Shown: one piece after another, positions 6,065 to 57,907 of the stretch
Layout of the letters: each line of letters starts with the position of its first letter
Numbering within the stretch: position 1 is the first letter of the stretch
Assembly (NCBI GenBank): GCA_944350425.1
Contig: CALVOX010000004.1
Span: forward strand, 1-64,000
Direction: 5' to 3'
From: an uncultured Bacilli bacterium
GTDB taxonomy: Bacteria > Bacillota_I > Bacilli_A > RFN20 > CAG-826
DNA: 64,000 nucleotides
Made by a program: the position numbers and the translations under genes
The notes under the pieces: generated by a model
Told to the model about the DNA's origin: nothing
The model's input: only the letters and a program-made list of their open reading frames with translations
The model's database searches: none

Positions 6065-6074
6065 GTGAAAAAGT

Positions 6075-7364: not shown

Positions 7365-7373
7365 GTGAAGAAT

Positions 7374-7823
7374 ATGAGTGAAAGTAAAGTTTTTAAAGGC
7401 AGAGTAATTGCTAAAGGTAATTTTAAAGGAGAAGCAGTAGTATCTCATGAAGGTTTTAATACTTTAGCGTCGTTTCAAAAAAGTGCTTTATTAAATAAAA
7501 AGAATGTTATTGTTTCTGATCAAAACAATAAAGATTTATATGGTAAAGATATTACAAATAAGATTTTATGTTTGCCTATAACTATTGGTTCAACTACAGG
7601 TGGATTAGTAATTCAAACAGTTTGCAATATGAAGATTAATCCTAGAGTATTCTTATTCTCTATGCCAATTGACTCTTTAGCTGCAAGCGGTATTGTTTTA
7701 GCAAAAGTCTGGCAAAATTCTGATGTTATTTGTGTTGATAATTTAGGAGAAGAATTTTTAAATACTGTTAAAACAGGTGATACTTTAGAAGTTAAAGAAG
7801 ATGGAACGGTAACGATTCTTTAA
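7374..7823 (+). CDS. Aconitase X, small swivelling subunit
   Basis: Small swivelling-domain subunit (DUF126) that closes over the active site of the large subunit, 149 aa from the ATG at 7374. The motif LPITIGSTTGGLVIQTV is the family hallmark, its serine lying at the substrate-binding loop in relatives; SMPIDSLAASGIVLAKVW is also typical. An in-frame GTG at 7365 would add three residues, but it lies inside the SD TAGGTGAAG (7362-7370) that overlaps the stop of the large subunit, so I use 7374. A terminator follows and closes the operon. The split two-subunit form is as in archaeal and some bacterial type II AcnX enzymes. Confidence 0.88.
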   Translation: MSESKVFKGRVIAKGNFKGEAVVSHEGFNTLASFQKSALLNKKNVIVSDQNNKDLYGKDITNKILCLPITIGSTTGGLVIQTVCNMKINPRVFLFSMPIDSLAASGIVLAKVWQNSDVICVDNLGEEFLNTVKTGDTLEVKEDGTVTIL

Positions 7824-7915: not shown

Positions 7916-8596
7916 CTAATTATTCAGTATTTCTTCAAGATTATTTATATTTTTAATTAAATTATTAAAAGCATCAGTCAACGGAAAGCCATCGACTAAA
8001 GTGTGAGAGACAGTAATATTTAATGTAACATAATAATTATTATCTAATTCATTGTAATAATATTTATCCCAGAAAACTCTAGGGACACTATTTGAAACAT
8101 AATTATAAGCTGGTGTTGGGTGTTTCATACTCTCCATAGATAAAGATGTAATACATGAAATATAGTAAACTGCTAAATCATCCGAATTATAATCAAGTAC
8201 GATATCTTCTTTATTTTTAAAGTAGTCTATAGTGTTTCGACAGTTAGTATAAAACTCTTTAAATGAAGCAGTTAAATCAGTTCTAGCATTATAAAAGACA
8301 CCATTTTTGTTGGATAAAACAGTATAAGTAGGATTAATTTTAGGAAAATAAGCAATTGTCTTTTCATTATCAATTTCTCTTAGATGCATTTCATAAACTT
8401 CATTCATTGAAATGGTGACTAAATATATGAATGTAATAAAGAACGAGTAGTGATGTTTTTTATTAAATTCAATTAATTTAGTTACATTAATTTTCACATT
8501 AAATCCATAGGTTGGATCAGGAAAGGTTCTAAACCAATTATATTGACTAATTTTTTTGAATTTTGACTTATCAATAATTTCGTAATGCTTATTCAT
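7916..8596 (-). CDS. Chloramphenicol acetyltransferase-like protein (CatA fold)
   Basis: 226 aa, the normal size for a type A chloramphenicol acetyltransferase subunit (trimeric, acetyl-CoA dependent). The catalytic HxxxDG motif is present near the C-terminus (SHTLVDGFPL), as are the CAT-like RTFPDPTYGF start and the FFITFIYLV strand. Homologues outside resistance elements are often chromosomal acyltransferases of unknown substrate, and nothing mobile flanks this gene, so resistance should not be assumed. The start is supported by AAGGAAA upstream on the minus strand. It diverges from the GH3 gene and is convergent with the aconitase-X operon. Confidence 0.8.
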   Translation of the reverse strand: MNKHYEIIDKSKFKKISQYNWFRTFPDPTYGFNVKINVTKLIEFNKKHHYSFFITFIYLVTISMNEVYEMHLREIDNEKTIAYFPKINPTYTVLSNKNGVFYNARTDLTASFKEFYTNCRNTIDYFKNKEDIVLDYNSDDLAVYYISCITSLSMESMKHPTPAYNYVSNSVPRVFWDKYYYNELDNNYYVTLNITVSHTLVDGFPLTDAFNNLIKNINNLEEILNN

Positions 8597-12287: not shown

Positions 12288-12911
12288 ATGAATAAAGTTG
12301 CAAGACAAATTAATAAGATCTGTTTGGCCGCAATGTTTTTAGCTCTTTGTTGGCTAATGCCTTTTTTAACAGCATCTAATCCTGAGCTTGGTAATATGTT
12401 TTTACCAATGCATATCCCAGTATTTATTGCCGGATTTGTTTTAGGGCCATTTTATGGCGGATTAATTGGTTTACTTGGTCCAATTACTAGAACATTAATT
12501 TTTGGAGCCCCACCTATTTTTAATTCTATTCCAATGTGTTTTGAACTTGCTACTTATGGATTTATAAGTGGATTATTATTCTCTTTATTAGTTAAGAAAT
12601 TAAATAAAGTTGATAGTTTACTTGCTATTTATATCGCTTTAATTTCTGCTATGGTAATAGGAAGAATTGTTGGTGGTTTTGTTTCTTATATTGTTACTTT
12701 CTTTAATGCAAATAGTAACGGTTATACATGGAGCGCTTATTGGACAAGTTACTTTGTTATGGCTTGGCCAGGAATGATCTTACAACTCGTTGTTGTTCCT
12801 GCTCTTATTAGATTACTTTATGGACTTAATTTGCTTAAAAATACCAATACTTTTAATCAAATTAAAGAAAAAAATAATAATACTGATAATATTAAGAACA
12901 ATAATAAATAA
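12288..12911 (+). CDS. ECF transporter S component (PF12822-type, substrate unknown)
   Basis: Substrate-binding membrane subunit of an energy-coupling-factor vitamin importer, 207 aa, six hydrophobic segments. The order of motifs MHIPVFIAGFVLGPFYGGLIG, LGPITRTLIFGAPP and CFELATYGFISGLLF matches the family that contains pantothenate-type (PanT) S components. No EcfA or EcfT gene is in the window, so it presumably shares the common module encoded elsewhere. SD TTAGGAG precedes the ATG. The gene is followed after 3 nt by a P-loop kinase, suggesting uptake coupled to phosphorylation. Pantothenate or another small vitamin or nucleoside is possible; I cannot decide. Confidence 0.82.
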   Translation: MNKVARQINKICLAAMFLALCWLMPFLTASNPELGNMFLPMHIPVFIAGFVLGPFYGGLIGLLGPITRTLIFGAPPIFNSIPMCFELATYGFISGLLFSLLVKKLNKVDSLLAIYIALISAMVIGRIVGGFVSYIVTFFNANSNGYTWSAYWTSYFVMAWPGMILQLVVVPALIRLLYGLNLLKNTNTFNQIKEKNNNTDNIKNNNK

Positions 12912-12914
12912 AAC

Positions 12915-13601
12915 ATGGATTTATCGATTTATTACATAAATAAAGATATAAAAATTATATATAAATATATTGATGAATTATTAGAAAAGAATAATTACGT
13001 GACAATATTTATAGATGGTTTTGCTACAAGTGGCAAAACCTCTTTGGCATTAAATGAGTTGAAAGAAAAATATAACTTAGTTGATAAAATCGATATTATT
13101 CATATAGATGATTTTTATTTGCCTAAGTCAAATAAAGATAATATTTTTAATAACTTAGATAAAATTGATACTTATTTAAATGGGAATATAGATTACTTTA
13201 GATTTAATAATGAAGTTAGTAATAATTTAAATAAGTTATTAAAATCTAAAACTATATCTTCATTTAAATATGGTATTTTTTCTTGTAAAGAACAAAAAAT
13301 AAGCGAAGAAATAATAGTCGATATTAAAAATAAATCTAGATTAACAATTATTGAAGGAACGTATTCTTTCTCTAGAAATATTAATTTAAATAGCGATTTA
13401 GATATATTTTTAATATTAACTAAAGAAGAAGAACTAGAAAGATTAAAGATTCGTGAAAATGAATCTAATTATAATAATTTTTTAAATATCTGGATGAAGC
13501 TCGAAAGAAATTATTTTTCATCTTTGAAACCTAAAAATAACGATTTGATTCTTTTTAAATACTCTAAAGAAGATGTAAGTATTTCAAACGAAAGTAAATA
13601 A
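12915..13601 (+). CDS. Uridine kinase-like P-loop kinase
   Basis: 228 aa protein with a Walker A motif IDGFATSGKTS (about residues 34-44) and an IIHIDDFYLPK stretch (about 56-66) like the substrate-binding region of uridine kinase, phosphoribulokinase and type I pantothenate kinase. A third motif LTIIEGTYSF matches the Walker-B-like strand of the same group. It begins 3 nt after the S-component stop without a clear SD, so it is likely translationally coupled to it. By context it should phosphorylate the imported vitamin or nucleoside and trap it in the cell. Its last codons contain the first AAACGAAA repeat of the downstream operator. Confidence 0.72.
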   Translation: MDLSIYYINKDIKIIYKYIDELLEKNNYVTIFIDGFATSGKTSLALNELKEKYNLVDKIDIIHIDDFYLPKSNKDNIFNNLDKIDTYLNGNIDYFRFNNEVSNNLNKLLKSKTISSFKYGIFSCKEQKISEEIIVDIKNKSRLTIIEGTYSFSRNINLNSDLDIFLILTKEEELERLKIRENESNYNNFLNIWMKLERNYFSSLKPKNNDLILFKYSKEDVSISNESK

Positions 13602-13710: not shown

Positions 13711-14520
13711 ATGAAAAATATATATCTCAACCTCAAAAGATTTGATATTCCTACGAGTTTAGATGGAATTAACAACGGTTTTAGAAATGAAACTTATGGT
13801 GAAGAAATAACTAAAGGAATTGAAGACATGCATTTAGATATTCCTATTACCATATTTTTTCAAGAATCTAATTTAATTAGTGCAAGAAAAGTTGCAAAAG
13901 AGATTAGAATTGGCTGCCAAGGAGTACATTATGCTGATGTTTCTAAAGGTGGCAATTTTGGTGCGTTTACAACTTCTAGAACTGCAAAATCAATGGTAGC
14001 AATTGGAGTAAACGATGCTTTAATCGGCCACTGCGAGGAAAGAAATCACCTTAACTATTTAACTTCCTTAGGCGGAAATAAGGTTGATATAAACGAAATA
14101 TTAAATAAAGAAATTAAATGTGCAATTGATGCTAATATGAATGTTCTTTATTGTATTGGTGAAAAATTAGAAGAACAAAGCGATAAATATAACGTTTTAA
14201 GAAATCAATTAGAAGTTGGATTAAAAGATATTGATTTATCTAAAGTTACAATTGCTTACGAACCTGTTTGGGCAATCGGCCCTGGAAGAACTCCACCTGA
14301 TAAAGAATACATTGAAGATATTGTTAAATTTGTTAAATCTGTTAAAGACGTTAAAGTCGTCTATGGTGGTGGATTAAAAATAGATAATGCTAAAATGTTA
14401 GCTTCAATAGATGAACTTGATGGCGGGCTTATCGCTTTAACAAGATTTGGCGCTGATTTTGGTTTTTATCTCGATGATTTCAAAAAAATCGTCGAAACAT
14501 ATAAAGAGGGGTTAAAATAA
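13711..14520 (+). CDS. Triose-phosphate isomerase paralogue (TIM-family isomerase)
   Basis: 269 aa TIM-barrel isomerase. The full catalytic set of triose-phosphate isomerase is present: Asn7 and Lys9 (LNLKRF), His107 (GHCEERN, for GHSERR) and Glu184 (YEPVWAIGPGRTPP). Surrounding segments are atypical: GAFTTSRTAK replaces GAFTGEISA, and YGGGLKIDNA replaces the usual YGGSV. The enzyme therefore should interconvert an aldose and ketose phosphate, possibly not glyceraldehyde-3-P/DHAP; TIM paralogues such as EryH act on tetrulose phosphates. It heads an operon with LarA-like and NagB-like proteins and an ABC importer. It could also be the main TIM of the cell, as no other one is in the window. Confidence 0.78.
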   Translation: MKNIYLNLKRFDIPTSLDGINNGFRNETYGEEITKGIEDMHLDIPITIFFQESNLISARKVAKEIRIGCQGVHYADVSKGGNFGAFTTSRTAKSMVAIGVNDALIGHCEERNHLNYLTSLGGNKVDINEILNKEIKCAIDANMNVLYCIGEKLEEQSDKYNVLRNQLEVGLKDIDLSKVTIAYEPVWAIGPGRTPPDKEYIEDIVKFVKSVKDVKVVYGGGLKIDNAKMLASIDELDGGLIALTRFGADFGFYLDDFKKIVETYKEGLK

Positions 14521-15953
14521 TGAAAGTAAAATTAGAGTATGGTGATGGCCAAGTAGAAGTAAATGTACCTGATAACAGTGACATATTCGAAACTGGCGTA
14601 ACCGTTAAAGACCCTAAAGGTCTAGATGATGTTAAACAAGCTACACTAGACGCACTTCATCATCCATTAAATATGAAAACAATTCCTGAACTTGTTCATG
14701 AAGGAAGCAAAATTACAATTGTTTTCCCAGACAAGGTTAAAGGCGGTTTTCAAGATGATTCTCATAGAAAAACATCTATCCCATTAATTATTGATGAATG
14801 CTTAAAAGCTGGAGCAAAAGAAGAAGACATCATGCTTATTTGTTCTAATGGTCTACATAGAAAAAATAAGCCAGAAGAAATCAAAAAGATCTTAGGTGAT
14901 GAATTATTCAATAGATTCTGGGATAAAGGCCAAATCGTAAACCATGATAGTGAAGATCCAGAACATATCGTTGATTTAGGCTATGAACCAAAATTCCATG
15001 CAAAAGTTGTTATTAATAAATATGTTTTTGATTCTGATGTATGTTTCTTAATTGGACATGCTCAAGGAAATCCTTATGGTGGATATAGTGGTGGTTATAA
15101 ACACTGCGCAACAGGTATTTCTAACTGGGAATCAATTTCCTCACACCATTGTCCAGAAGTAATGCATAGAAAAGACTTCGTTCCTGTTACTTCACATTCA
15201 CTCATGAGACAAAAATTTGATGCTATTGGTGAGTGGATGGAACACGGAATGGGCAAAAGTTTCTTCTGTGTTGATGCAGTACTTGATTCATTCTCACATC
15301 AAATCGCTGTATTTGCCGGTGAAGCTCATGCAGTTGAAAAAGCTTCGTGGGAAATTGCAGATAAACGTACCTATGTACATTGGGCTAAGAAAAAATATGA
15401 TGTAATTATTATGGGTCTTCCAAATGATTTCCAATATGGAACAAGACAAGGAAGAAATCCTATCTTAATCGAACAAGCTATTGCTGCTCAAATCGTAAGA
15501 TTAAAGAGAGTTATGGTCGAAAACCCTGTAATTATTGCTCTTGCTCAATGTGATGACTTCGGTGATGAAGAATTCCCAGCAATGAAAGATGTCTATGATT
15601 ATTATGTAGCTCATGGCAATACATTACCTGATATTGAACATTACTATGATGTGATGGATCAAAAGAAATATATTGATGCTTATAGATTCAATTATGCTTT
15701 CCATCCATTCCATGCATTCTCAATGATTTCTTGCGCACATATTGCTGAAAGAGATTGCAAAGCTGTCTATATCGTTGGTGCTAAAGTACCAGGATATGCA
15801 AGAGAAATGGGAATGAAAACAAGAAATACAGTAATGGAAGCATATGAAGACGCTAAAAAATATGTCGGAGACAATCCTAATGTATTAGTTCTTCCAATGA
15901 CATTTAAACGTCCATCAGTACACTTATGTATGGAGGATGATAAAAATGAATAA
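14520..15953 (+). CDS. LarA-like protein (nickel-pincer racemase/epimerase family, DUF2088)
   Basis: 477 aa relative of lactate racemase LarA, whose family racemises or epimerises 2-hydroxy acids, including sugar acids, by hydride transfer to a nickel-pincer nucleotide. The GLHRKNKPEEI segment (His113) corresponds to the GTHR motif, and GGYSGGYKH (Lys194) to the GFSGGRK motif whose lysine tethers the cofactor. The preceding histidine (His180 in IGHAQGNPYGG) lies 14 residues before this lysine instead of about 10, and the DxTR-like motif reads PDKVKGG, so this is a divergent subgroup. The ATG overlaps the preceding stop (TAATG) behind SD GAGGGG. larB, larC and larE are not in the window. Confidence 0.8.
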   Translation: MKVKLEYGDGQVEVNVPDNSDIFETGVTVKDPKGLDDVKQATLDALHHPLNMKTIPELVHEGSKITIVFPDKVKGGFQDDSHRKTSIPLIIDECLKAGAKEEDIMLICSNGLHRKNKPEEIKKILGDELFNRFWDKGQIVNHDSEDPEHIVDLGYEPKFHAKVVINKYVFDSDVCFLIGHAQGNPYGGYSGGYKHCATGISNWESISSHHCPEVMHRKDFVPVTSHSLMRQKFDAIGEWMEHGMGKSFFCVDAVLDSFSHQIAVFAGEAHAVEKASWEIADKRTYVHWAKKKYDVIIMGLPNDFQYGTRQGRNPILIEQAIAAQIVRLKRVMVENPVIIALAQCDDFGDEEFPAMKDVYDYYVAHGNTLPDIEHYYDVMDQKKYIDAYRFNYAFHPFHAFSMISCAHIAERDCKAVYIVGAKVPGYAREMGMKTRNTVMEAYEDAKKYVGDNPNVLVLPMTFKRPSVHLCMEDDKNE

Positions 15954-16767
15954 TAAAGAATGGTTATCTTTAAAAGGAGAAGCACTTACAAAAGGTAAAA
16001 TCCCTATTGATATTTATAAAGATAAAGAAACAACTTTTAAAGAAATGGCACTCTTAATGGCTAATACCATTAAAGAAAATAACGAAAAAGGAAAGAAAAC
16101 ATTATTCATTGTCCCGCTTGGACCAGTTGGTCAATATAAATACTTTGTAGAAATCGTGAATAAAGAAAGAATCCCCCTCAAGAAGGTTACCTTCATCAAC
16201 ATGGATGAATACATGGTTGATGAAGATACACTTCTTAGTGAAGAAGATACTCTTTCATTTAAAAACACAATGTATAGATTGTGCTATAATCAAATCGATA
16301 AAGACTTATTGATGGATGAAAGCCGAAGAATATTCCCAAATCCTAATAATATAGACTTAATTGATAAGATTATAGATGAGCATGGTGGAGTTGATATTTG
16401 CTTCGGTGGTATAGGTATTACCGGACACGTTGCTTTCAATGAACCACCTCATGTTAATGAAACGATTGATGGTGCTGCTTATAAAAATTTAGGAACTAGA
16501 GTTGTAAAAATCTCTGAAGAAACTAGAGTAGTTAATTCAATGGATGATTATGATGGTGCTTATTATTTAGTTCCAAAATATGCAATTACAATTGGTTTCA
16601 AAGAAATCTTAAAAGCAAAGAAAATTAGATTATATTGCTTTAGAAACTGGCATAAATCAGTTGTTAGAAGAGCTAGTTTCTTAGATAAATCAGTATTCTT
16701 CCCTGTAAGCTTACTCCAAGATCATTCTGATACTAGAATTGGAATAAGTGAAGAAGTTGCTGAGTAA
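15946..16767 (+). CDS. NagB-like sugar-phosphate isomerase/deaminase
   Basis: 273 aa protein of the glucosamine-6-phosphate deaminase / 6-phosphogluconolactonase family. FINMDEYM (Asp87) matches the base Asp72 of E. coli NagB, and GIGITGHVAFNE matches the GVDGHIAFNE active-site loop with His161 and Glu166. Thr159 stands where E. coli NagB has Asp141 (other NagB proteins have Asn). The substrate may thus differ from glucosamine-6-P, for example a galactosamine-6-P deaminase (AgaI-like) or a plain aldose-ketose isomerase. An upstream ATG at 15937 abuts the SD GGAGG, so the ATG at 15946 is preferred; it overlaps the LarA-like gene by 8 bp. Confidence 0.8.
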   Translation: MNNKEWLSLKGEALTKGKIPIDIYKDKETTFKEMALLMANTIKENNEKGKKTLFIVPLGPVGQYKYFVEIVNKERIPLKKVTFINMDEYMVDEDTLLSEEDTLSFKNTMYRLCYNQIDKDLLMDESRRIFPNPNNIDLIDKIIDEHGGVDICFGGIGITGHVAFNEPPHVNETIDGAAYKNLGTRVVKISEETRVVNSMDDYDGAYYLVPKYAITIGFKEILKAKKIRLYCFRNWHKSVVRRASFLDKSVFFPVSLLQDHSDTRIGISEEVAE

Positions 16768-16777
16768 GGAGAAAATT

Positions 16778-17734
16778 ATGGCGGAAAAGAAAGTAAAAAC
16801 TCCAAAAGAGAAAAAGCCTCATGGTTGGCTAAAAGAAAAATTAACTCCTCGTTTTGTTAAAAATCATACAGCAAAAAGAAACGCTGCTATTGCTGCTGTT
16901 GATTTGACTAGATTGTCAAAACCTGTTAATGATGTTGCAACTAGTGGCCCTAAAAAAATGAAAGACTTTAGCTTGTGGGCTGGTTGGAAAACTGCACTCG
17001 TTGGTTTAGTTGGTGTTATTTGCGTTATAGCAATATGGTGGCTTTATTCTTATATTGCTGTTGATGTAATGGGAGAAAAAAGTTGGTTGTCATCCCCTCC
17101 AGAAGTAGTTGCAAAATTTATTGAAATGGCTAGCAACGGAAGATTGTGGCAACACTTAGGTTACTCTGTTCAACGTGTTCTCGTTGGTTTCTTAATTGCT
17201 TGCGTAACTTCGATTCCTGTAGCATTCTTAATGGCTTGGTATAAACCAGTTAGAGCATTCTTGGATCCGTTCGTTCAATTTATGAGATGTATTCCACCAT
17301 TAGCTTATGTTCCAATCGTTGTTGCAGCATTTGCTGGTGGCGAAGGTGCTAAATATTTCATTATTTGGTTAGCCGTTTTCTTAACAATGACTGTTACAAT
17401 TTATCAAGGTGTTAGAAATGTTGATTTAACTCTTGTTAAAGCCGCATATACATTTGGCGCTAAAGATAGAAATTTATTCTTAGGTGTTATTGTTCCAAGT
17501 GCATTCCCATTTATTCTTACAGCTATGAGACTTGGTGTTGGTGCTGCTATGACTACATTAGTCGCAGCTGAAATGAGTGGTACTCAATTTGGTTTAGGCT
17601 TCTTCATTAATTCACAAGGTAACCAATTAAGACTAGATTATTGTATCATGGGCATCATTGTACTTGGCTTATTTGGAATTTTATTAGATAAGATATTATT
17701 AGTAATCGAGAAAAGATTAACCAGATGGAAATAA
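16778..17734 (+). CDS. ABC transporter permease, TauC/SsuC/NrtB type
   Basis: 318 aa inner-membrane subunit of an NMT1-class importer (nitrate/sulfonate/taurine/pyrimidine-precursor family). A positively charged N-terminal tail of about 65 residues precedes six hydrophobic segments. The EAA-like coupling loop reads KAAYTFGAKDRNLFLGVIVPSA, and GLGFFINSQGNQLRLD near the end is characteristic. The ATG at 16778 has SD AAGGAG overlapping the NagB-like stop; an upstream in-frame ATG at 16748 lies inside the previous gene and lacks an SD. Genes for ATPase and binding protein follow directly. Family members seldom carry neutral sugars, so the ligand may be an acid or sulfonate. Confidence 0.88.
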   Translation: MAEKKVKTPKEKKPHGWLKEKLTPRFVKNHTAKRNAAIAAVDLTRLSKPVNDVATSGPKKMKDFSLWAGWKTALVGLVGVICVIAIWWLYSYIAVDVMGEKSWLSSPPEVVAKFIEMASNGRLWQHLGYSVQRVLVGFLIACVTSIPVAFLMAWYKPVRAFLDPFVQFMRCIPPLAYVPIVVAAFAGGEGAKYFIIWLAVFLTMTVTIYQGVRNVDLTLVKAAYTFGAKDRNLFLGVIVPSAFPFILTAMRLGVGAAMTTLVAAEMSGTQFGLGFFINSQGNQLRLDYCIMGIIVLGLFGILLDKILLVIEKRLTRWK

Positions 17735-17746
17735 TAGGAGAATTTT

Positions 17747-18646
17747 ATGAGTAACGAAGGAAAAGTTGTTATAAAGATTGATAACGTTAAAAAGATTTAT
17801 CCTGTTGAAAACGGCGAAGATGTTGTTGCTTTAAATGGTGTTAATCTAGAAATTAGAGAAAACGAGTTTATATGTGTTGTTGGCCCATCTGGCTGTGGCA
17901 AAACTACATTATTAAATATAATTGGTGGTCTCGAACAGCCAACAAGCGGAGAAGCGACAATTCATGGGAGACCAATTCTTGGACCTGGGCCAGATAGAGG
18001 AATTATTTTCCAACAATATGCTTTATTCCCTTGGTCAACAGTTAAAAAGAATGTTATGTATGGTACAAAATTTATTAAGCATGAAGTACCAGTAATGAAA
18101 AAAAATAAAAAAACCGGCAAGATGGAACAAGTTTACACTACCGATAAAGATGGCAATAGTGTTCCACTAATGAAGAGAGTTAACTACTCTAAATTGGAAA
18201 GGGAAGCAATTGCTCAAAAATATATCGATATGGTTCAACTTAATGGATTTGAAAATAAATATCCAAAAGAACTATCTGGTGGTATGAAACAAAGAGTTGC
18301 TATTGCTAGAGGATATGCTTTAAATTCAGAAGTTTTGTTACTTGATGAACCATTTGGTGCATTAGATGCTCAAACAAGATCTCAACTACAGGAAGATTTG
18401 CTAAGAACTTGGGAAAAAGAAAGAAAAACTTGTTTCTTTATTACCCATGATGTTGATGAATGTGTTCTTCTTGCGTCAAGAGTTATTATAATGAGTGCAA
18501 GACCTGGACAAGTTAAAGAAATTATTAATATTGATTTACCTTATCCACGTACTCAAGCTACAAAACTTGAGCCAAAATTCCAAGAATATAGAAATCATAT
18601 TTGGGATGTTGTTTATAAGATGTACGTTGATAGTACAAAACATTAA
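17747..18646 (+). CDS. ABC transporter ATPase, TauB/SsuB type
   Basis: 299 aa nucleotide-binding subunit. Walker A GPSGCGKTT (46-54), Q-loop FQQYALFPW (88-96), signature LSGGMKQR (176-183), Walker B VLLLDEPFGALD (196-207) and H-loop FITHD are all intact. Between the Q-loop and the signature there is an extra segment of roughly 35 residues rich in Lys and Asp (about 112-146), absent from usual TauB/SsuB proteins. It falls in the helical subdomain that contacts the permease. The gene starts 12 nt after the permease stop with SD AGGAG. A short gap with a small inverted repeat separates it from the binding-protein gene. Confidence 0.9.
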   Translation: MSNEGKVVIKIDNVKKIYPVENGEDVVALNGVNLEIRENEFICVVGPSGCGKTTLLNIIGGLEQPTSGEATIHGRPILGPGPDRGIIFQQYALFPWSTVKKNVMYGTKFIKHEVPVMKKNKKTGKMEQVYTTDKDGNSVPLMKRVNYSKLEREAIAQKYIDMVQLNGFENKYPKELSGGMKQRVAIARGYALNSEVLLLDEPFGALDAQTRSQLQEDLLRTWEKERKTCFFITHDVDECVLLASRVIIMSARPGQVKEIINIDLPYPRTQATKLEPKFQEYRNHIWDVVYKMYVDSTKH

Positions 18647-18696
18647 TTAGGTTACACAAAATTTTTGTGAAAATAAGTATTTTATAAGGAGAATTT

Positions 18697-19848
18697 ATGA
18701 AAAAAACAAAATTTTTATCTTTATTAACTATAGGTTTACTAGGATTAGGTACCATTGTTGCTTGTGGTCCAAAAGATAATCCTACACCAAATCCAAATCC
18801 TAATCCAGAACCAACACCTGAGGTTGAAAAAATCAAAATTGGGTTACATAGCAATTTAGGTGCTGGCGCTGGCTACAGTGCTATCAATCAAGGATTCTTT
18901 AAGGAAGAGGGAATTGAAGCAGAACCAGTTGTTGGTGCTGGTCCAGCTTTAGCTACTCAAGTTATGAACGGCGACATTCAACTTTCTTTCATGGGTGGTG
19001 GTGTTGCTTATAATTATTGGGCAGAAGATCCTCAAATTAAATTAGTAGCACTTGATAATTTAACTGATGATGATAGATTATTTGCAAATCCAGCAGGACC
19101 TGGCAAAAATTTAACACTCGACTCATCTTTAGAGGAAATCGGAAACGCTTTAAAAGGAGCATCAATCGGTTTAGATTTAACTCAAACTCCTGGTACTTTC
19201 CTTACAACACTTATTAATGGCGTTAATGGAGTCATGGATGAAGGAGAAGCTATTTGGTATACAGATTCAACAGGTAAAAAAGTCCCAAACAATCTTACAA
19301 CTTATAATCCTGATAACGAATTAATTGTTTCACAAGTTGATTCTGCTTCAACTGCTGTTCAAGCAACTAACTATGATTTCGTTATTGCATTTGCACCTTC
19401 TGCAACATTACTCGAAGAATTAGGAACAATGAAAGTTGTTTGTAAAACATCAACTCACTTTGCTGATCAATATAAACCATCAACATGGGCAGTCAATGCT
19501 GATTGGTTAGAAAACAACGAAGAAACTTTCAAAAAAGTTATGAGAGGTCTTGTTAAAGGCATGAATTTCCGTAGAGATAACCCAGAAGAAACATGCAAAG
19601 ATATTGAAGAAATCACCGCTGGTTCTGTTGCTGCAGATTCTTTATCAACCGACATTGCTATTTGGTTAGGGGATCAAGAACAAATTGATTTATATGATGA
19701 AGGAAAGATGGTTCAATATGCCCAAAATATTTTAGATGCTGATAGAACTGGCGCAAATGCTGATAAAGTTTCGGCTGATGCATCTGTTGAAAAAAATGCT
19801 GACTTCTCATATATCTATGAAGCTGCAAAAGAAGTTTTAGGCGAATAA
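18697..19848 (+). CDS. ABC transporter substrate-binding lipoprotein, NMT1/TauA type
   Basis: 383 aa secreted lipoprotein. A signal sequence ends in the lipobox TIVAC (Cys23), followed by a Pro/Asn/Glu-rich linker (about 24-45). The mature domain starts KIKIGLHSNLGAGAGYSAINQGFFKEEG, which is typical of NMT1/SsuA-like binding proteins. The sequence ALATQVMNGDIQLSFMGGG matches the part of the fold that lines the ligand cleft. SD AAGGAG precedes the ATG. It completes the importer and is followed by a strong terminator. The ligand is not evident: relatives bind sulfonates, pyrimidines, nitrate or aromatic acids. Confidence 0.88.
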   Translation: MKKTKFLSLLTIGLLGLGTIVACGPKDNPTPNPNPNPEPTPEVEKIKIGLHSNLGAGAGYSAINQGFFKEEGIEAEPVVGAGPALATQVMNGDIQLSFMGGGVAYNYWAEDPQIKLVALDNLTDDDRLFANPAGPGKNLTLDSSLEEIGNALKGASIGLDLTQTPGTFLTTLINGVNGVMDEGEAIWYTDSTGKKVPNNLTTYNPDNELIVSQVDSASTAVQATNYDFVIAFAPSATLLEELGTMKVVCKTSTHFADQYKPSTWAVNADWLENNEETFKKVMRGLVKGMNFRRDNPEETCKDIEEITAGSVAADSLSTDIAIWLGDQEQIDLYDEGKMVQYAQNILDADRTGANADKVSADASVEKNADFSYIYEAAKEVLGE

Positions 19849-19868: not shown

Positions 19869-19896
19869 AAAAAAGAGGAGTTAATCCTCTTTTTTT
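19869..19896 (+). terminator. Rho-independent terminator of the ABC operon
   Basis: Perfect stem AAAAAAGAGGA (19869-19879) / TCCTCTTTTTT (19885-19895) with a 5-nt loop and a T run. Confidence 0.93.
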
Positions 19897-20370: not shown

Positions 20371-20418
20371 TTGAATAGCCTCTTTTATAAGCCGATAATA
20401 ATTGATAAACTATTTTCT

Positions 20419-20952
20419 ATGAAAAAGATTGTAATATTACCTTTAATTTTGTTTTCTTTTATTCTTTCTTCATGTCTATTTCAAACTCCAACATATGAAG
20501 CCATTTTTAATGAAATAATTGAAGAAAATAACTTTGATAAAATATATTGTTTCACTGAAGATTCAGCTATTACAAATACATTAATACCAGAAGAAGAACA
20601 AAATTACCCTTATAGTGTGATCTATACTATTTATGGAGAAATTGATAAAGAAGACGTAATTCTTACCTATGGTTATGCAGAATGGGGAAGAATTTTTGGT
20701 CCTTTAGAATCTTCGCGGCCTATGGCTCATAGTTACGATGAATGTTTAAACCTGTATAGCGAAAATTTAAACGGTAGATTATTTAATAAAGATATATCTG
20801 ACGGAATTACTTTTTTAACTAGAACAGATAACATAGAAGAATTATTTGATGGGAATGATTTACCAGATAATAATTTTATGCTTAGGTACAACCAAAATTA
20901 TTATATATACGAAATGGATGGCGAATTATTGTTTGATTATATTGAGCTATAA
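20419..20952 (+). CDS. Putative small lipoprotein, unknown function
   Basis: 177 aa from the ATG at 20419. The start MKKIVILPLILFSFILSSC is a clean lipoprotein signal with lipobox LSSC (Cys19), so I prefer it to the ATG at 20371, which would put 16 residues before the signal. The mature part is acidic (pI low by inspection) with EIIEENNFDKIYC and YGYAEWGRIF stretches and no motif that I recognise. There is no convincing SD. It lies between the ABC operon and the convergent TauE/SafE gene (17 bp apart). Function unknown. Confidence 0.7.
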   Translation: MKKIVILPLILFSFILSSCLFQTPTYEAIFNEIIEENNFDKIYCFTEDSAITNTLIPEEEQNYPYSVIYTIYGEIDKEDVILTYGYAEWGRIFGPLESSRPMAHSYDECLNLYSENLNGRLFNKDISDGITFLTRTDNIEELFDGNDLPDNNFMLRYNQNYYIYEMDGELLFDYIEL

Positions 20953-20969
20953 TAAAAGAGATGATAATT

Positions 20970-21824
20970 TTAACTAATTAAAGCTAACGAACTATTAACA
21001 ATAATATAAATATTAATCAAAATGATTGCGACAGTAGTTGCTGTATAAACAATAGAAACACCTTTATTGGTCATTTTCTTATTAAACCATGTACCAAGAA
21101 GTGAACCAATAATTGAAACTGGAACAAGAATAACTAAGAATAACCACCATACTTGGTCAGGACTACCGTTTGCTAAATCGGTTGTACATTGTGAGAAAAT
21201 TGTTACAAAAGTTCCATCAATTCCAGCCATTACAATCTTTGAAAGTTGAGAGAATATAATTGTAATAAGTGAGTTAATGGCAGCTTGCTTCATATCCATT
21301 CCAAAGAATAAAAGTAAAACAGCAACATTGATTGGACCACCACCAATTCCTAAGAATGTTGAACAAATTCCTAAGAAGATGCCAATAATTATTGTAACAA
21401 TGAAGTTTTTAATATGCATGACTTTACCTTTTGGCAAAAATATTTGCATATAAACAATAACAAATAAGAGTAAAACGATAAGAATAACTGATTGAGTTAT
21501 TTTCAAAATATCATCATTCGATGCATTTTTAACAAAACCAAATAAAAATTGTCCAATAACTCCACCAATTACTGCACCTACTCCAAGGAAAACAGCTGTC
21601 TTCCAGTTTTCAATCTTCGATTTTGAAGCGATATGTCTAATAATCGAAGTAGATGTACCAAATACGACACAGAAAGTTGATATCATATTGGTGATTTCGG
21701 CAGTTTCAAAATAGTTAAAAGCATCCAGTACTGGTCTAATAATAACACCGCCACCAATACCAGCTATTGCTCCAACAATTGAAGCAATAATTACAACTAA
21801 TGGAAAAATAAAATAATAAATCAT
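20970..21824 (-). CDS. TauE/SafE-family anion (sulfite/sulfonate) exporter
   Basis: 284 aa polytopic protein with about eight hydrophobic segments. The two repeated motifs of the family are present: GAIAGIGGGVIIRPVLD near the N-terminus and FLGICSTFLGIGGGPINVAVL in the second half. Characterised members export sulfite, sulfoacetate or related anions during sulfonate or sulfolactate metabolism. It is transcribed away from deoR, and the 14-bp inverted repeat lies in the shared intergenic region, so it is probably in the same regulon. There is no SD; a TATTAT box ends 8 nt before the ATG, which suggests a leaderless mRNA. The actual anion is unknown. Confidence 0.85.
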   Translation of the reverse strand: MIYYFIFPLVVIIASIVGAIAGIGGGVIIRPVLDAFNYFETAEITNMISTFCVVFGTSTSIIRHIASKSKIENWKTAVFLGVGAVIGGVIGQFLFGFVKNASNDDILKITQSVILIVLLLFVIVYMQIFLPKGKVMHIKNFIVTIIIGIFLGICSTFLGIGGGPINVAVLLLFFGMDMKQAAINSLITIIFSQLSKIVMAGIDGTFVTIFSQCTTDLANGSPDQVWWLFLVILVPVSIIGSLLGTWFNKKMTNKGVSIVYTATTVAIILINIYIIVNSSLALIS

Positions 21825-21988: not shown

Positions 21989-22753
21989 ATGAAAATAAAT
22001 AAAAGACAAGCCAAGATCGTCGAAATGGTCGATATCGAAAAGAAAATTAGTGTTAAAGACTTATCTACTAGATTAGAAGTAAGTGAAGTAACAATTAGAA
22101 AAGATTTAGATATATTAAATGATTATGGGGTTTTAATAAGACATCATGGTTATGCATTAAAAAAGAATACAGCTGATATTGTAAATAGATTATCAATTAA
22201 CTATGAAATTAAAAGAAAAGTAGCCGTAAAAGCCGCTTCTTTAATCGATATGAATGAGTCTGTTTTAATTGGCAGTGGCTCAACTTGTGCTCTACTTGCT
22301 GAAGAAATAGCTAAAACTAAGCCTGGAGTTACCATCATTACTCATTCTATTTATATCGCTGAACACGCATCAAAATTAGGAAATAATCATATTATTTTGC
22401 TTGGTGGGGAACTTCAAAAAGACGCACAAGTCTTAGTTGGGCCTCTTGTAAGAAGTAGTTCGAGACAATTTTTTGTTGATAAAATATTTATTGGAACAGA
22501 TGGTTTTGTCAAAAATGCTGGTTTTATGGGTAGTGATTCTTTAAGAACAGATGCTATTAGAAATATGGCCGAATCAGCAAGAAAAATCATTATTATTACT
22601 GATTCTTCAAAGTTTGACAAAAGAGGTTTACTAGTTCAATTCCCAGTAAACCAAGTAAGTGAATTAGTTACAGATTCTAATTTATCTAAAGAATATATAG
22701 ATTATTTTAATTTATATAAATTAAAATTAGATTTAGTTGATATTAATCATTAA
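21989..22753 (+). CDS. DeoR/AgaR-family transcriptional repressor
   Basis: 254 aa regulator. The N-terminal winged helix reads RQAKIVEMVDIEKKISVKDL followed by LEVSEVTIRKDLDILNDYG, the standard DeoR DNA-binding signature. The C-terminal sugar-phosphate sensing domain carries GSGSTCALLAEEI and IGTDGFVKNAGFMGSD. Such repressors release DNA on binding a phosphorylated sugar intermediate. The inverted repeat directly in front of it points to autoregulation, and matching AAACGAAA sites occur before the ABC operon, nagA and the ROK gene. The effector is presumably a pathway sugar phosphate. Its 3' end overlaps the convergent mutarotase gene by 11 bp. Confidence 0.92.
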   Translation: MKINKRQAKIVEMVDIEKKISVKDLSTRLEVSEVTIRKDLDILNDYGVLIRHHGYALKKNTADIVNRLSINYEIKRKVAVKAASLIDMNESVLIGSGSTCALLAEEIAKTKPGVTIITHSIYIAEHASKLGNNHIILLGGELQKDAQVLVGPLVRSSSRQFFVDKIFIGTDGFVKNAGFMGSDSLRTDAIRNMAESARKIIIITDSSKFDKRGLLVQFPVNQVSELVTDSNLSKEYIDYFNLYKLKLDLVDINH

Positions 22754-23618
22754 AAACAAATTCTAAAGAATAACAATATTCATTAGTATTAAAAGTTTTA
22801 TTTATAAAAAGTCTATCTGTAATTGAACTAGATTCATTTACATAATTAGAAATACCCCACCAAGGTTCAATACAGACGAATTCCCCTTTATCTTTATTGG
22901 ACCATATTGCATATAAAGGAGCATTAAAAGAGTATTTAACTTTGTAATTAAATCCACTATCTAAAATAACTTCATCAGAATTATTTTTGAATACTAGAGT
23001 GTCATATTTCTTAAATAGTTCTTTATTTAAGGAAATATTAGGATTATTATCATTTAATTCTAAAAAGTTTACTGAACGATCAAAATCTATTAAGCCATTC
23101 TTATCTAATGGATAAAAAACGATCTCCTTGTTTTCTGTATTTGAAAGCAAAATACTTCCTAAAGATGAAGATGCTTTTAAGCCAGTATGGGATCCGTAAG
23201 AATAATAAAGAGGATTTTCTTGAACATCATCATTATCATTATAAATTTTAGTTCTAACCACAATTTTATTTTTTAATAACATGTAAGTTATATCAAAGGT
23301 AAACTTGAATGGATAGAAGGCTAAGTCCTCTGTTACTGATTCATATCTTAAAGTTACTACTATTGAAGATTTATCGATAACTCTAAACTTTTTATCTCTT
23401 ACTAAACCATGTCTTAAAGGAAAAGAGTAGTAAGTATTATTAAATTCATACTCTCCTTTACCAATTAAAGGGAATAAGACTACATCTTGGAAAGCCCAAG
23501 AACCTTCCTCAATTTGATAAAGCAATTCTTTATTACGTTTTAAAGAAAGAATTGAAGTTAAGGATGCACCAACTTCATTTATTGATATTTTAAGATATTC
23601 GTTGCTAATTTCTTCCAT
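22743..23618 (-). CDS. Aldose 1-epimerase-like protein (LacX type)
   Basis: 291 aa galactose-mutarotase-fold protein of the LacX group, which interconverts anomers of a sugar or sugar phosphate. Markers are LRHGLVRDKKFRV, YSYGSHTGLKAS and FVCIEPWWGISNYV, the latter with the likely catalytic Glu. SD AAGGAG lies before the ATG on the minus strand and next to an AAACGAAAA site shared with the divergent nagA. Mutarotases of this type often accompany amino-sugar or tagatose pathways. The exact sugar is not known. The 3' end runs 11 bp into deoR from the other strand. Confidence 0.85.
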   Translation of the reverse strand: MEEISNEYLKISINEVGASLTSILSLKRNKELLYQIEEGSWAFQDVVLFPLIGKGEYEFNNTYYSFPLRHGLVRDKKFRVIDKSSIVVTLRYESVTEDLAFYPFKFTFDITYMLLKNKIVVRTKIYNDNDDVQENPLYYSYGSHTGLKASSSLGSILLSNTENKEIVFYPLDKNGLIDFDRSVNFLELNDNNPNISLNKELFKKYDTLVFKNNSDEVILDSGFNYKVKYSFNAPLYAIWSNKDKGEFVCIEPWWGISNYVNESSSITDRLFINKTFNTNEYCYSLEFVFND

Positions 23619-23762: not shown

Positions 23763-24908
23763 ATGAAAAAAATAAAGAAATTTAAAAATATTTTAGTGGT
23801 AAAAGAAGACCGCGAAGAATTCGATGATATTTGCTTTAATGAGAAGTTTCTTTCAAATGAAGCAAACCAAGATCTAGAAATAGAAGAAGTAGATTATAGT
23901 GGGAAAATCATGGTTCCAGGATTTATCGATGTTCATACACACGGTGGAAATAACTATGACTTTACAACTGTTAAAAGTGTTGATGAAATTAAAGAAGTTT
24001 TAAAATTTTATCATTCTCATGGTGTTACTGCATTGCTTCCAACTTTATTAACAGAACATGATGAAGTAATATTTAGACAAGAAGCTTTAATTAGCGAAGC
24101 AAGTAAGAGTGAGCCATCAATAATCGGAATTCATCTTGAAGGGCCTTTTGTTTCAAAAGAATACAAAGGAGCGCAACTTGAAGAATGCTTGCAAAATCCT
24201 TCAATTGAAAAGTGCAAAGAATTTATTGAACATTCTAATGGCTTGTTTAAATATATGACAATTGCTCCAGAGCTTCCTGGAAGTGTTGAAACAATTAAAT
24301 TTTTAGTTTCTAAAGGAATTAAAGTTTCAATGGGACATAGCGCTGCAACTTTCGATGATTGTAAAAAGGCAATCGAAGCTGGTGCAACTAATATTACTCA
24401 TTGTATGAATGCAATGAAAGGTCTTCACCAACATTTCCCATCAATTACTACCGCTGCTTTCTATTTTGAAGATTTATATAACGAATTAATACTCGATGGT
24501 ATACACGTGGTACCTGAAATGGTCGAATTTGTTCGTAAAATTAAAGGAAATGATAAAGTTGTAGGTATTACAGATTCTTTAAGTGCTGCAGGCTTACCAG
24601 ATGGCGATTATATGCTTGGTAATACACCAATTTATGTACTCAATCATGATTGTAAGATTAAAGGAAGCGATGTTAGAGCTGGCTCAACATTAACTATGGA
24701 AAGAGCATTTTCTAATGTAAAGAACTTCACTCATATTGATGATGTTAAGGCTTCTCATATCACATCTTTAAATGCTGCAAGAATGCTTGGTATAGATGAT
24801 TTATATGGTTCGATTAAAGTAGGAAAATTTGCTGATTTTGTTATTATGAATCGTAATTACGAAATAGAAGAAGTTTACGTTCATGGAAGTTTAGTATATA
24901 AAAATTAA
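23763..24908 (+). CDS. nagA: N-acetylglucosamine-6-phosphate deacetylase
   Basis: 381 aa amidohydrolase-superfamily enzyme that removes acetate from GlcNAc-6-P, or from GalNAc-6-P in AgaA relatives. Metal and catalytic residues are in place: VPGFIDVHTHGG, HLEGPFVS, MGHSAATFDDC, THCMNAM and the catalytic Asp in GITDSLSAAG. It is divergent from the mutarotase gene, has its own promoter with a leader of about 55 nt, and is followed 13 nt later by the phosphofructokinase gene. Together with the ROK kinase, NagB-like protein, PFK and aldolase it sketches an amino-sugar route. GlcNAc and GalNAc versions cannot be separated by motif alone. Confidence 0.93.
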   Translation: MKKIKKFKNILVVKEDREEFDDICFNEKFLSNEANQDLEIEEVDYSGKIMVPGFIDVHTHGGNNYDFTTVKSVDEIKEVLKFYHSHGVTALLPTLLTEHDEVIFRQEALISEASKSEPSIIGIHLEGPFVSKEYKGAQLEECLQNPSIEKCKEFIEHSNGLFKYMTIAPELPGSVETIKFLVSKGIKVSMGHSAATFDDCKKAIEAGATNITHCMNAMKGLHQHFPSITTAAFYFEDLYNELILDGIHVVPEMVEFVRKIKGNDKVVGITDSLSAAGLPDGDYMLGNTPIYVLNHDCKIKGSDVRAGSTLTMERAFSNVKNFTHIDDVKASHITSLNAARMLGIDDLYGSIKVGKFADFVIMNRNYEIEEVYVHGSLVYKN

Positions 24909-24921
24909 AAGGGGAATATTT

Positions 24922-26091
24922 ATGTCAAAAAATTTACTTATTGCTCATGGCGGCGGACCAACTGCTGTAATTAATGCTTCACTTTATGGTGCATTAAAAG
25001 AGTTAAAAGATTCTAAATTTGGTGGGAAAATTTATGCTCCAAGATTTGGAAGTGATGGATTAGTTAATGAAGATTTTGTCGATTTAACTAATATTTCTGA
25101 AGAGGATTTAGAACTTTTAAAAACCACACCAGGAAGTGCAATTGGTTCATCAAGATTCCCTTTATATGATAAAGAATATGAACAAATCATCGATGTTTTA
25201 ATTAAATATAATATAGGTTATGTTCTTTTTACTGGTGGAAATGGCTCAATGGACACAATCGGTAATATATATAAACACGCTTTAAAGAGAAATTATGATG
25301 TAACTTGTGTTGGAATTCCAAAAACTGTTGATAACGATCTTGGTATTACTGATCATGCTCCAGGATATGCTTCTTGTGCAAACTACATTATTCAATCAGT
25401 AAAAGACGTTTGTAACGATGTAAAAGGATTCCCAATCCATGTATGTGTTATCGAACTTATGGGTAGAAATGCTGGTTGGCTTACTGCTGCTAGTGCTCTA
25501 GCTAGAGATAAAAAAGGCGCTGCACCACATTTAATTTATTTACCAGAAGTACCATTTGATGAAGATAAATTTATTGAAGATGTTAAAAGAGAGTGGGATA
25601 AAAATCATGGTGGAGTAGTTGTTTGTTGTAGCGAAGGTTTAAAAGATAAAGATGGAAAGCCAATTGTAAAACCTATATATAAAACAGAAAGAGCAACATA
25701 TTTTGGAGATGTTTCAACCCATTTAGCCACATTAGTTATTCAAAAACTTGGTATTAAAGCTAGAAGTGAAAAACCAGGTCTTTTACAAAGATGTTCTTCA
25801 ACTTTAACTTCAAAAGTAGATGTTGATGAAGCTGTTTTATGTGGAAAAGAAGCAATTAAAGCGGCTTTAGCACATAAAAATGGCGTAATGGTTGGTATAA
25901 AAAGAGTCTCATCAAATCCATATAAAATTGAAACTATCTTAATTCCAATTGATGAAGTTATGATGAAAGAAAGAACATTCCCTTTATCTTATATTAAAAA
26001 TGGTAACGATGTTAGTGATGAGTTTGTTGAATGGTTAAGACCTCTTGTAAATGAACCTCAAAAAACTATTTCTTTTGTTGATAAAGATTAA
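24922..26091 (+). CDS. 6-phosphofructokinase, possibly PPi-dependent
   Basis: 389 aa phosphofructokinase-family enzyme producing fructose-1,6-bisphosphate (or tagatose-1,6-bisphosphate). The N-terminal loop is GGGPTAVINAS; GGNGSMDT (105-112) and PKTVDNDL (133-140) line the active site, and ELMGRNAGWLTA follows. The lysine in PKTVDND is the mark of pyrophosphate-using enzymes, while Gly108 at the E. coli Gly104 position is the mark of ATP users, so the phosphoryl donor is open. SD AAGGGGAA lies before the ATG. It is cotranscribed with nagA and ends at a two-way terminator shared with the convergent aldolase gene. Confidence 0.9.
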   Translation: MSKNLLIAHGGGPTAVINASLYGALKELKDSKFGGKIYAPRFGSDGLVNEDFVDLTNISEEDLELLKTTPGSAIGSSRFPLYDKEYEQIIDVLIKYNIGYVLFTGGNGSMDTIGNIYKHALKRNYDVTCVGIPKTVDNDLGITDHAPGYASCANYIIQSVKDVCNDVKGFPIHVCVIELMGRNAGWLTAASALARDKKGAAPHLIYLPEVPFDEDKFIEDVKREWDKNHGGVVVCCSEGLKDKDGKPIVKPIYKTERATYFGDVSTHLATLVIQKLGIKARSEKPGLLQRCSSTLTSKVDVDEAVLCGKEAIKAALAHKNGVMVGIKRVSSNPYKIETILIPIDEVMMKERTFPLSYIKNGNDVSDEFVEWLRPLVNEPQKTISFVDKD

Positions 26092-26166: not shown

Positions 26167-27276
26167 TTATTTAACTGTTTTCATAATTTCAACAGCATCA
26201 CCGACGCTACCGAAATATGAAGAAGCACTTAAGACAATTTCTTTTACCGCTAAAACAAGTAAAGGAGCAATTTCGTTTAATTCTTCGTTCCAACCTTTGT
26301 TTGTTTCGAGTTCATTAATGTATTCTCTTAAGTATTTTCTATATTCGAAAGACTTTCTATCAGCAACTAAAAGTGGATAAATCTTGGATGTTTCTCTTTT
26401 TTCTTTGTGTTGATCAAAATATTCAAGTAAGTTTCTAGTTGTTGCAAGTCTAATGTCTGTATCCATATTAATTTTGGAGATACCTGAAGGAATGACTTCC
26501 ATTAATTGATCTAATGGAATTCCGTGACCGCCAACTTCTCCACCTAATGCATTGATTTCGTTTAAGATATATTGAGGAACTAAGCTTGAACCATGGGAAA
26601 CAAGAGTTGCATCAATTTTTTCATGCATCATATTTTCCATTGTTGCAATAACGATTTCTTTTCTTAATTTAACATTATCGCCTTTTACTGCACCGTGTTT
26701 TGTTCCATAAGAAATAGCTAACGAATCAACGCCAGTTCTTTTTAAGAAATCAACTGCTGTAATTGGATTAGTATAAGTGGAAGATGCAGCAAATACATGG
26801 TCTTCTACGCCAGCTAAAACACCGAGTTCAGCTTCAACAACTGCACCATGTTTATGAGCATAGGTTGCAACTTTTTTAGCTAATTTAACATTTTCTTCAT
26901 AAGGAAGCGAACTTCCATCAATCATGACGCTATTAAAGCCAGCATCAACGCACATTTTTGCGGATTCATAACTTCTACCATGATCTAAGTGTAATGAAAT
27001 TGGAACAGGAGATTTTTCTGCTAATTTTTTAACATATTTAGCAATTCTTTTAGCACCTAATTTTTTTTCTTCCATTGTTCCGTTTAAGAAGTCAGGATTT
27101 CCACCAATATAAGCTAATCCTGGTTCAGCAACTTGAATAATTGCACCACATCTTAATTCTTCGCAAGCTTCGATGATAGCTTTAGCTTGGATTAATGTGT
27201 TGACGTTAAAAGCACCGTGAGCAATTTTGTGGTCTCTAGCGTACTTTAAGATGTAATTTGATGATACATATGGCAT
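26167..27276 (-). CDS. fba: Class II fructose-bisphosphate aldolase
   Basis: 369 aa zinc-dependent aldolase that splits fructose-1,6-bisphosphate (or tagatose-1,6-bisphosphate) into DHAP and glyceraldehyde-3-P. HGAFNVNTL lies near the N-terminus, SLHLDHGRSYE carries the catalytic Asp and a zinc His, then come ISYGTKHG and LVSHGSS, and NMDTDIRLA for phosphate binding. It is one of the longer class II forms; GatY/AgaY types are shorter, which favours the fructose role. SD GAGAGGT precedes the ATG on the minus strand. It diverges from the ROK gene across an intergenic region with a TTTCGTTTA...TAAACGAAA pair. Confidence 0.92.
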   Translation of the reverse strand: MPYVSSNYILKYARDHKIAHGAFNVNTLIQAKAIIEACEELRCGAIIQVAEPGLAYIGGNPDFLNGTMEEKKLGAKRIAKYVKKLAEKSPVPISLHLDHGRSYESAKMCVDAGFNSVMIDGSSLPYEENVKLAKKVATYAHKHGAVVEAELGVLAGVEDHVFAASSTYTNPITAVDFLKRTGVDSLAISYGTKHGAVKGDNVKLRKEIVIATMENMMHEKIDATLVSHGSSLVPQYILNEINALGGEVGGHGIPLDQLMEVIPSGISKINMDTDIRLATTRNLLEYFDQHKEKRETSKIYPLLVADRKSFEYRKYLREYINELETNKGWNEELNEIAPLLVLAVKEIVLSASSYFGSVGDAVEIMKTVK

Positions 27277-57547: not shown

Positions 57548-57907
57548 GGGGATGTCTTGGTTTCGACATATCTTGACTTGGCATTATGTGCAGCGGAGTT
57601 GTGACCTAATCACTATAAAAATATCTGGCAACAGAACACAAAATTTAGCATTCGCTGCTTAATTGCAGAATTAATTTAGTTTAAAGGAATGTGCAAACAT
57701 TAAACGTTCAATTTCTTAAGTTTATTGTTTGAATTAGTTAAGAAGTCTAGTTAGACGATGATTATAAGTTTAACTTAGTATTCATAATCTCGTTTCTTAA
57801 ATGTTTGTAAGAATAACTTTAGGAAATTAAATCTTCTTTCTTACTAAGCTGTAGAAGTAATGTAGGGTTATTTATGGACCGGAGTTCAATTCTCCGCATC
57901 TCCACCA
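57548..57907 (+). ncRNA. ssrA: Transfer-messenger RNA (tmRNA), one-piece form
   Basis: 360 nt RNA that rescues stalled ribosomes with SmpB. The 5' end GGGGATGTCTTGGTTTCGACA and the 3' end with GGAGTTCAATTCTCC, then CATCTCC and an encoded ACCA, form the tRNA-like acceptor domain (GGGGATG pairs CATCTCC). The tag frame is GGC at 57627 to TAA at 57660-57662 and reads GNRTQNLAFAA after the charged alanine. The sequence between the tag and the T arm folds as several pseudoknots in relatives; I did not model it. The tag end AFAA differs from the common ALAA. Confidence 0.95.

Follow-up and report, generated by a model that had tools for sequence, protein, structure and literature searches.

A conserved gene cluster pairing a triosephosphate isomerase paralogue with a single-histidine LarA-like protein: a candidate glycolysis-like pathway for C6-substituted sugars

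Introduction

What substrate would be served by an operon that joins a triosephosphate isomerase (TIM) paralogue, a LarA-like protein, a NagB-like protein and an NMT1-type importer? Such an operon lies at positions 13,711–19,848 of the window analysed here, a stretch of 64,000 nucleotides (contig CALVOX010000004.1, positions 1–64,000, assembly GCA_944350425.1) from an uncultured Bacilli bacterium (GTDB lineage RFN20; CAG-826) with a genome of 1.15 Mb that is 95% complete. The original prediction, made from the letters alone, proposed a scheme in which an acidic or sulfonated sugar is imported, inverted at C2 by LarA, phosphorylated by a ROK kinase and isomerised, and knew of no earlier pathway with this gene set. 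The latter point has been overtaken: the association of LarA with TIM, NagB-like proteins and importers is already on record, and the link of single-His LarA proteins to glycolysis-like genes and ABC importers is therefore known (PMC12611868, 2025; cited throughout for the sections of that paper covered here). Our favoured reading, held at a little under even confidence, is that the operon, with its neighbours, specifies a second Embden–Meyerhof–Parnas (EMP)-like pathway for a hexose or N-acetylhexosamine whose C6 bears an anion other than phosphate, probably a sulfonate or sulfate; the sulfur group is our working hypothesis.

Results

Altered phosphate sites in a second set of glycolytic enzymes

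All six ORFs of the operon were found on one strand, overlapping or nearly abutting as originally described (spacings of -1, -17, -20, +12 and +50 bp). The functional unit extends past this six-gene span, to about position 27276, as TauE/SafE, a DeoR regulator, aldose epimerase, NagA, a pyrophosphate-dependent phosphofructokinase (PPi-PFK) and a class II aldolase (FBA) recur with it. Canonical TIM, PFK and FBA are encoded elsewhere in the genome and the clustered set is therefore not a housekeeping one; a canonical NagB was not found in the genome.

Alignments of the clustered TIM, NagB, NagA, PFK, FBA and phosphoglucose isomerase (PGI) proteins showed that catalytic residues are kept but the positions expected to bind the C6-side phosphate are lost or changed, whereas the canonical TIM, PFK and FBA copies retain their C6-side phosphate residues. 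The counts that follow come from motif counting over the cluster sequences, with denominators that differ by family, and the roles of the phosphate-site residues are presumed to be those of the E. coli and Bacillus enzymes. In the TIM paralogue (13711..14520, + strand; PF00121, 6e-34), the catalytic K9, H107 and E184 are invariant as expected of a canonical TIM, but the phosphate-side loops 7 and 8 have been replaced, with YGGS becoming YGGG in 71/71 sequences and GGAS becoming ALT[RK]F in 69/71; the genome's canonical TIM retains GGAS. An AlphaFold2 (AF2) model of the paralogue (pLDDT 93.5) has a TIM fold, with 19–28% identity to solved TIMs. The NagB-like deaminase/isomerase (15937..16767, + strand; no Pfam match) reaches 97.8 bits against a cut-off of 236.9 with the canonical glucosamine-6-phosphate (GlcN6P) deaminase model (TIGR00502, 6e-28) and lacks the GGTP loop, which reads GP[VIA]G in 40/42 sequences (LGPVGQ in the window); K208 is variable.

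The NagA-like deacetylase (23763..24908, + strand) passes the cut-off of TIGR00221 (7e-82), and its HHREP phosphate motif is of an HQHFP type, the Arg being replaced by His in 38 of 41 sequences. The PPi-PFK-like kinase (24922..26091, + strand; PRK14072, 6e-125; nearest structures 3k2q and 3hno) has a rearranged anion site: His occupies the R162 position in 47/49 sequences, where the related PPi-PFK 3k2q has Lys, and the R243 position holds Arg rather than His. The FBA paralogue (26167..27276, - strand; PF01116, 4.5e-74) has a Ser to Ala change in the 6-phosphate loop, and in the PGI of relatives SKSGTT is replaced by AK[DN]F.T. Most of these changes lower positive charge, and a group with a single charge, such as a sulfonate or sulfate, would therefore fit better than phosphate.

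Conservation of the cluster within and beyond the genus

A scan of approximately 85,000 genomes yielded 80 loci, 63 of them outside the genus (from Clostridia, Spirochaetes and others), and neighbours were counted by ORF clustering over these 63. LarA is accompanied there by the TIM paralogue in 54 loci, PPi-PFK in 36, a LacI regulator in 33, FBA in 30, the ATPase in 29, NagA in 27, the NagB-like protein in 24, the permease in 23, the NMT1 binding protein in 16 plus 5 (two subfamilies), aldose epimerase in 15, PGI in 13, a histidine kinase/response regulator pair in 13 and LarC in 4. In the genus itself, 18 of 26 genomes carry LarA together with the TIM paralogue and the NagB-like protein, and the other eight have none of the three. 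The gene order thus recurs both inside the genus and across distant phyla, as a search proposed with the original prediction was meant to establish, and an association by chance can be set aside; conservation confined to the ABC part had been named as counter-evidence, and the enzymes proved to be conserved too.

The core of the cluster is the TIM–LarA pair, and the sugar module upstream varies: locus L123 carries genes that by sequence are ribulose-phosphate epimerase-like and RpiB-like, and L119 carries a xylose-isomerase-like barrel. ROK is not among the recurrent neighbours, and the ROK gene of the window (27525-28475) was rejected as the pathway kinase. The DeoR-family regulator (21989..22753, + strand; PF00455, 7e-40) is kept beside the cluster in the genus, and the adjacent aldose 1-epimerase (22743..23618, - strand; PF01263, 9e-17) is the gene with homologues in 15/63 extra-genus loci. 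In most of the genus the TIM paralogue is immediately preceded by a conserved pair (12288-13601), first an ECF transporter S component and then a P-loop kinase-like gene.

Transport genes and a possible link to sulfur

The operon encodes an ABC permease of the TauC/SsuC type (16748..17734, + strand; PF00528; PRK10160, 1e-47, below cut-off), an ATPase of the TauB/NtrCD type (17747..18646, + strand; TIGR01184, 1e-75, and a TauB model, 3e-67, both below cut-off) and a lipoprotein-type binding protein (18697..19848, + strand; PF09084, 6e-9). An AF2 model of the last (mean pLDDT 89) matched TauA (6ssy) best in Foldseek, with thiamin-binding 4nmy and SsuA-type 3uif also matched; thiamin-, nitrate- and bicarbonate-binding relatives rank close behind TauA. 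The parts of a TauABC-type importer are therefore present, namely a binding protein of TauA/SsuA fold with matching permease and ATPase, as judged by fold within a broad family, and the modelled TauA-like fold lends weak support to a sulfur link.

A TauE/SafE anion exporter (20970..21824, - strand; PF01925, 2e-35) is single-copy in the genome and is found within approximately 7 kb of LarA in 16 of the 18 LarA-positive genomes, the other two having it on fragmented contigs. Outside the genus TauE is present in 14/63 loci, as two subfamilies (9 plus 5) and frequently within the operon itself. PFK-type kinase and aldolase paralogues thus stand with TauE/SafE in one cluster, as in sulfo-EMP-type gene sets. 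Sulfatases lie within the same run of genes or operon in L111 and L133, and L077 has a PF07221 gene between the binding protein and PGI; PF07221 is the family of the sulfoquinovose (SQ) isomerase YihS (PMC9594981). Apart from this single gene, the SQ isomerases SqvD and YihS are not among the recurrent neighbours. Unlabelled ORFs of 560–780 amino acids near the clusters were considered as sulfoquinovosidases and dropped, with no obvious GH31 by eye, and GH3 enzymes are not diagnostic. A GH3 glycosidase (8688-11135) lies near the cluster, with homologous genes in several members of the genus, and L133 has another GH3 between LarA and TauE.

A terminator-like palindrome (19869..19895, no strand assigned) follows the binding protein gene, and a lipoprotein-like ORF of 193 amino acids (20371-20952; no Pfam match) lies between it and TauE; several members of the genus have an ORF of similar length in that place. 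In L091, L092, L106 and L117 the NMT1 binding protein is followed by a histidine kinase, a response regulator and a chemotaxis-receptor-like protein; the receptor of L092 bears an NMT1-like domain, which suggests chemotaxis toward the same ligand.

The LarA-like protein belongs to a single-histidine subfamily, judged by its residues

The LarA-like protein (14520..15953, + strand; Lar_N, PF09861, 4e-36) has as its nearest solved relatives 9q2u (E 1e-176) and 9q3j (E 7e-174), which are LarA_Sp and LarA_Bw respectively (PMC12611868), with 55% identity to both and homology over the full length. LarA_Sp loads its nickel-pincer nucleotide (NPN) cofactor in L. lactis. Members of their subfamily are reported to be octameric, to have Asn where the second catalytic His would stand and a covalent NPN cofactor, to show no lactate racemase activity and, in LarA_Sp, to hold an unidentified ligand of 316.5 Da; their reported neighbours are TIM, PFK, GlcN6P isomerase, aldolase, aldose epimerase and ABC transporters (PMC12611868). 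The window protein has the catalytic His113 as well as Asn184, Lys194, His210, Asp71 and Lys74, as do all 77 sequences compared. The NPN-binding Asp71 and Lys74, the covalent Lys194 and the nickel ligand His210 are therefore conserved, and Asn occupies the second catalytic His position in 77/77, at variance with the two-His pattern of lactate racemases. On these residues the protein is assigned to the single-His LarA subfamily.

An Asn at this position makes ordinary two-way inversion at C2 unlikely. The inversion step of the original prediction thus loses its footing, nothing supporting an inversion first, and an ordinary lactate or malate racemase was rejected on the same residue. Identity across the genus is 70–98%, and the position of LarA_Sp His306 is Gln in 18/18 genus sequences (Q305 in the window) by comparison with His in 59/59 outside it. 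Any match of the 316.5-Da LarA_Sp ligand to a named sugar acid was set aside as numerology. A search for plasmids carrying LarA returned distant homologues only, at less than 60% identity.

Cofactor synthesis genes are missing from the genus

The original prediction had called for a search for larB, larC and larE and had named their absence as evidence against itself. None of the three was found in any of the 26 genus genomes, larE having matches only far below cut-off, and the host genome thus lacks its own NPN synthesis genes. Relatives outside the genus with the same cluster have larC in 31 of 50 cases; in L081 and L082 larE-larB-larC lie, by sequence, directly downstream of PFK-TIM-LarA, and the larC of L110 was confirmed by model. 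This is a paradox with two resolutions, uptake of the cofactor or a change of the enzyme in this genus, and it raises the question of whether cells can share the nickel-pincer nucleotide.

Discussion

Relation to described systems

The window protein resembles LarA_Bw and LarA_Sp in its identity, its one catalytic His with Asn at the second position, its Lys and His for NPN and its neighbours; it differs in having Gln for His306 and in belonging to a genus without NPN synthesis genes. The sections of PMC12611868 covered here make no mention of the TauE link or of altered phosphate sites. These two features and the missing larB, larC and larE are new as judged from those sections and one open-access library, and no described route joining LarA to sulfosugars, or for GlcNAc-6-sulfate, was found in the open-access literature searched.

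Sulfo-EMP2 uses a PF00365 kinase and a PF01116 aldolase, and sulfo-EMP a PF01263 mutarotase (PMC9594981). The cluster is like sulfo-EMP2 (SqvD, SqvB, SqiK, SqiA) in having a PF00365 kinase and a PF01116 class II aldolase, which in sulfo-EMP2 serve a 6-sulfo ketose; by contrast its isomerases are NagB-like or PGI-like rather than SqvD/SqvB, it adds NagA, the TIM paralogue and LarA, and it has no sulfolactaldehyde (SLA) reductase or dehydrogenase. Membership of the known sulfo-EMP2 was rejected, as SqvD and SqvB are not recurrent neighbours. L-erythrulose-1-phosphate isomerase (PDB 11ef) offers a precedent for a TIM-fold paralogue recruited to a side pathway, but shares only 19% identity with the window paralogue and lies outside any LarA cluster.

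A proposed pathway

The observed gene set, co-conservation, altered residues and exporter link could be accommodated by the following route, for which we infer every substrate and reaction from family chemistry. The sugar would be imported by the TauABC-like system, mutarotated by the aldose epimerase, deacetylated by the NagA-like enzyme and then deaminated and isomerised by the NagB-like protein (PGI-like in some relatives) to a 6-substituted ketose, which the PPi-PFK-like enzyme would phosphorylate at C1. Cleavage by the class II aldolase would give dihydroxyacetone phosphate (DHAP) and a 3-substituted lactaldehyde, and the TIM-like and LarA-like pair would process this C3 product; our guess for this step is that the TIM-like enzyme performs an enediol reaction and that LarA then carries out a hydride shift on the NPN cofactor for which one His suffices. 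The released or modified sulfur anion would leave through TauE.

Methylglyoxal is a known side product of TIM (PMC12965863). A new sulfoglycolytic branch could be drawn in which the TIM-fold enzyme eliminates sulfite or sulfate from 3-sulfo-lactaldehyde via an enediol(ate), leaving methylglyoxal. The single-His LarA would convert the hydrate of this product to lactate, moving a hydride internally with the help of the nickel-pincer cofactor, TauE would export the sulfur anion, and the genus would have to take up the cofactor from its neighbours; this version we regard as improbable.

Several observations weigh against the pathway as proposed. A C3 substrate would be too small to account for the 316.5-Da ligand seen in LarA_Sp (PMC12611868), the NPN synthesis genes are absent from the genome, and sulfoquinovosidase, SLA reductase and SLA dehydrogenase are not conserved members of the cluster. 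TauE is missing from most extra-genus loci (8 of 34 complete ones have it), and both TauE/SafE and NMT1 proteins are broad families. Residue roles and numbering are borrowed from E. coli enzymes rather than from ligand-bound structures of these proteins, and some positions, FBA R331 and PFK R243/R252, have been retained or rearranged rather than lost.

Alternative explanations

The anion at C6 could be a carboxylate. The cluster would then degrade a uronic or aminouronic acid, the aldolase giving DHAP and tartronate semialdehyde, the TIM-like enzyme interconverting the latter with hydroxypyruvate, and LarA acting on an alpha-hydroxy acid, for example at C5 of the uronate. Known LarA substrates are indeed alpha-hydroxy acids, epimers of gluconate and arabinarate among them (PMC11770544), and the phosphate-site changes would suit any non-phosphate group. 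Yet a uronate isomerase or dehydratase was not seen among the conserved neighbours, TauE, the TauABC-like importer and the sulfatases point to sulfur, and NagA suits an N-acetylhexosamine better than a plain uronate; we consider a carboxylate possible but unlikely. The cluster might instead be an ordinary duplication of glycolytic and GlcNAc enzymes acting on the usual phosphorylated intermediates, as the classical route (NagA, NagB, PFK, FBA, TIM) has the same families and the same order of chemistry, the catalytic residues are the same and NagA passes its cut-off. Against this, 6-phosphate residues are lost or changed in all six families, each enzyme of the classical route included, while TIM, PFK and FBA are intact elsewhere in the same genome. 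The NagB-like protein is, moreover, far from canonical in a genome that lacks a canonical NagB, on which grounds classical GlcNAc catabolism was rejected; plain duplication is unlikely, somewhat more so than a carboxylate.

Less probable again is the original order of import, C2 inversion, ROK phosphorylation and isomerisation. It draws on the same operon, on LarA family chemistry and on an acid-type importer, and its broader proposal of a dedicated, conserved pathway for an acidic or sulfonated sugar stays plausible; inversion as the first step and ROK are left unsupported by the invariant Asn and by the absence of ROK from the recurrent genes, and TIM with an aldolase implies cleavage rather than isomerisation alone. 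Finally, the paradox of the missing cofactor could be explained if LarA in this genus no longer used NPN and had a structural or other role. The genus-wide absence of larB, larC and larE and the genus-specific Gln at the His306 position would accord with this, but every cofactor-binding residue, the covalent Lys included, is kept, as is high identity across the genus, and we hold it to be very unlikely.

Of the two single-His LarA structures that exist, neither has a known reaction or substrate. Three things narrow the LarA candidates to C6-substituted sugars and their C3 products: the conserved pathway in which the gene sits, the phosphate sites lost from its partner enzymes and the association with TauE. 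If the proposed EMP-like pathway for a sulfur-bearing sugar is correct, it would represent a further route by which gut and sediment anaerobes use sulfated or sulfonated sugars.

Other features of the window

At 3995-7823 an Old-yellow-enzyme-type oxidoreductase precedes the two subunits of aconitase X (AcnX large and swivel domain), and a CAT-family acetyltransferase (PF00302) is encoded on the minus strand at 7916-8596. A tmRNA (RF00023, 94 bits) lies at 57548-57907.

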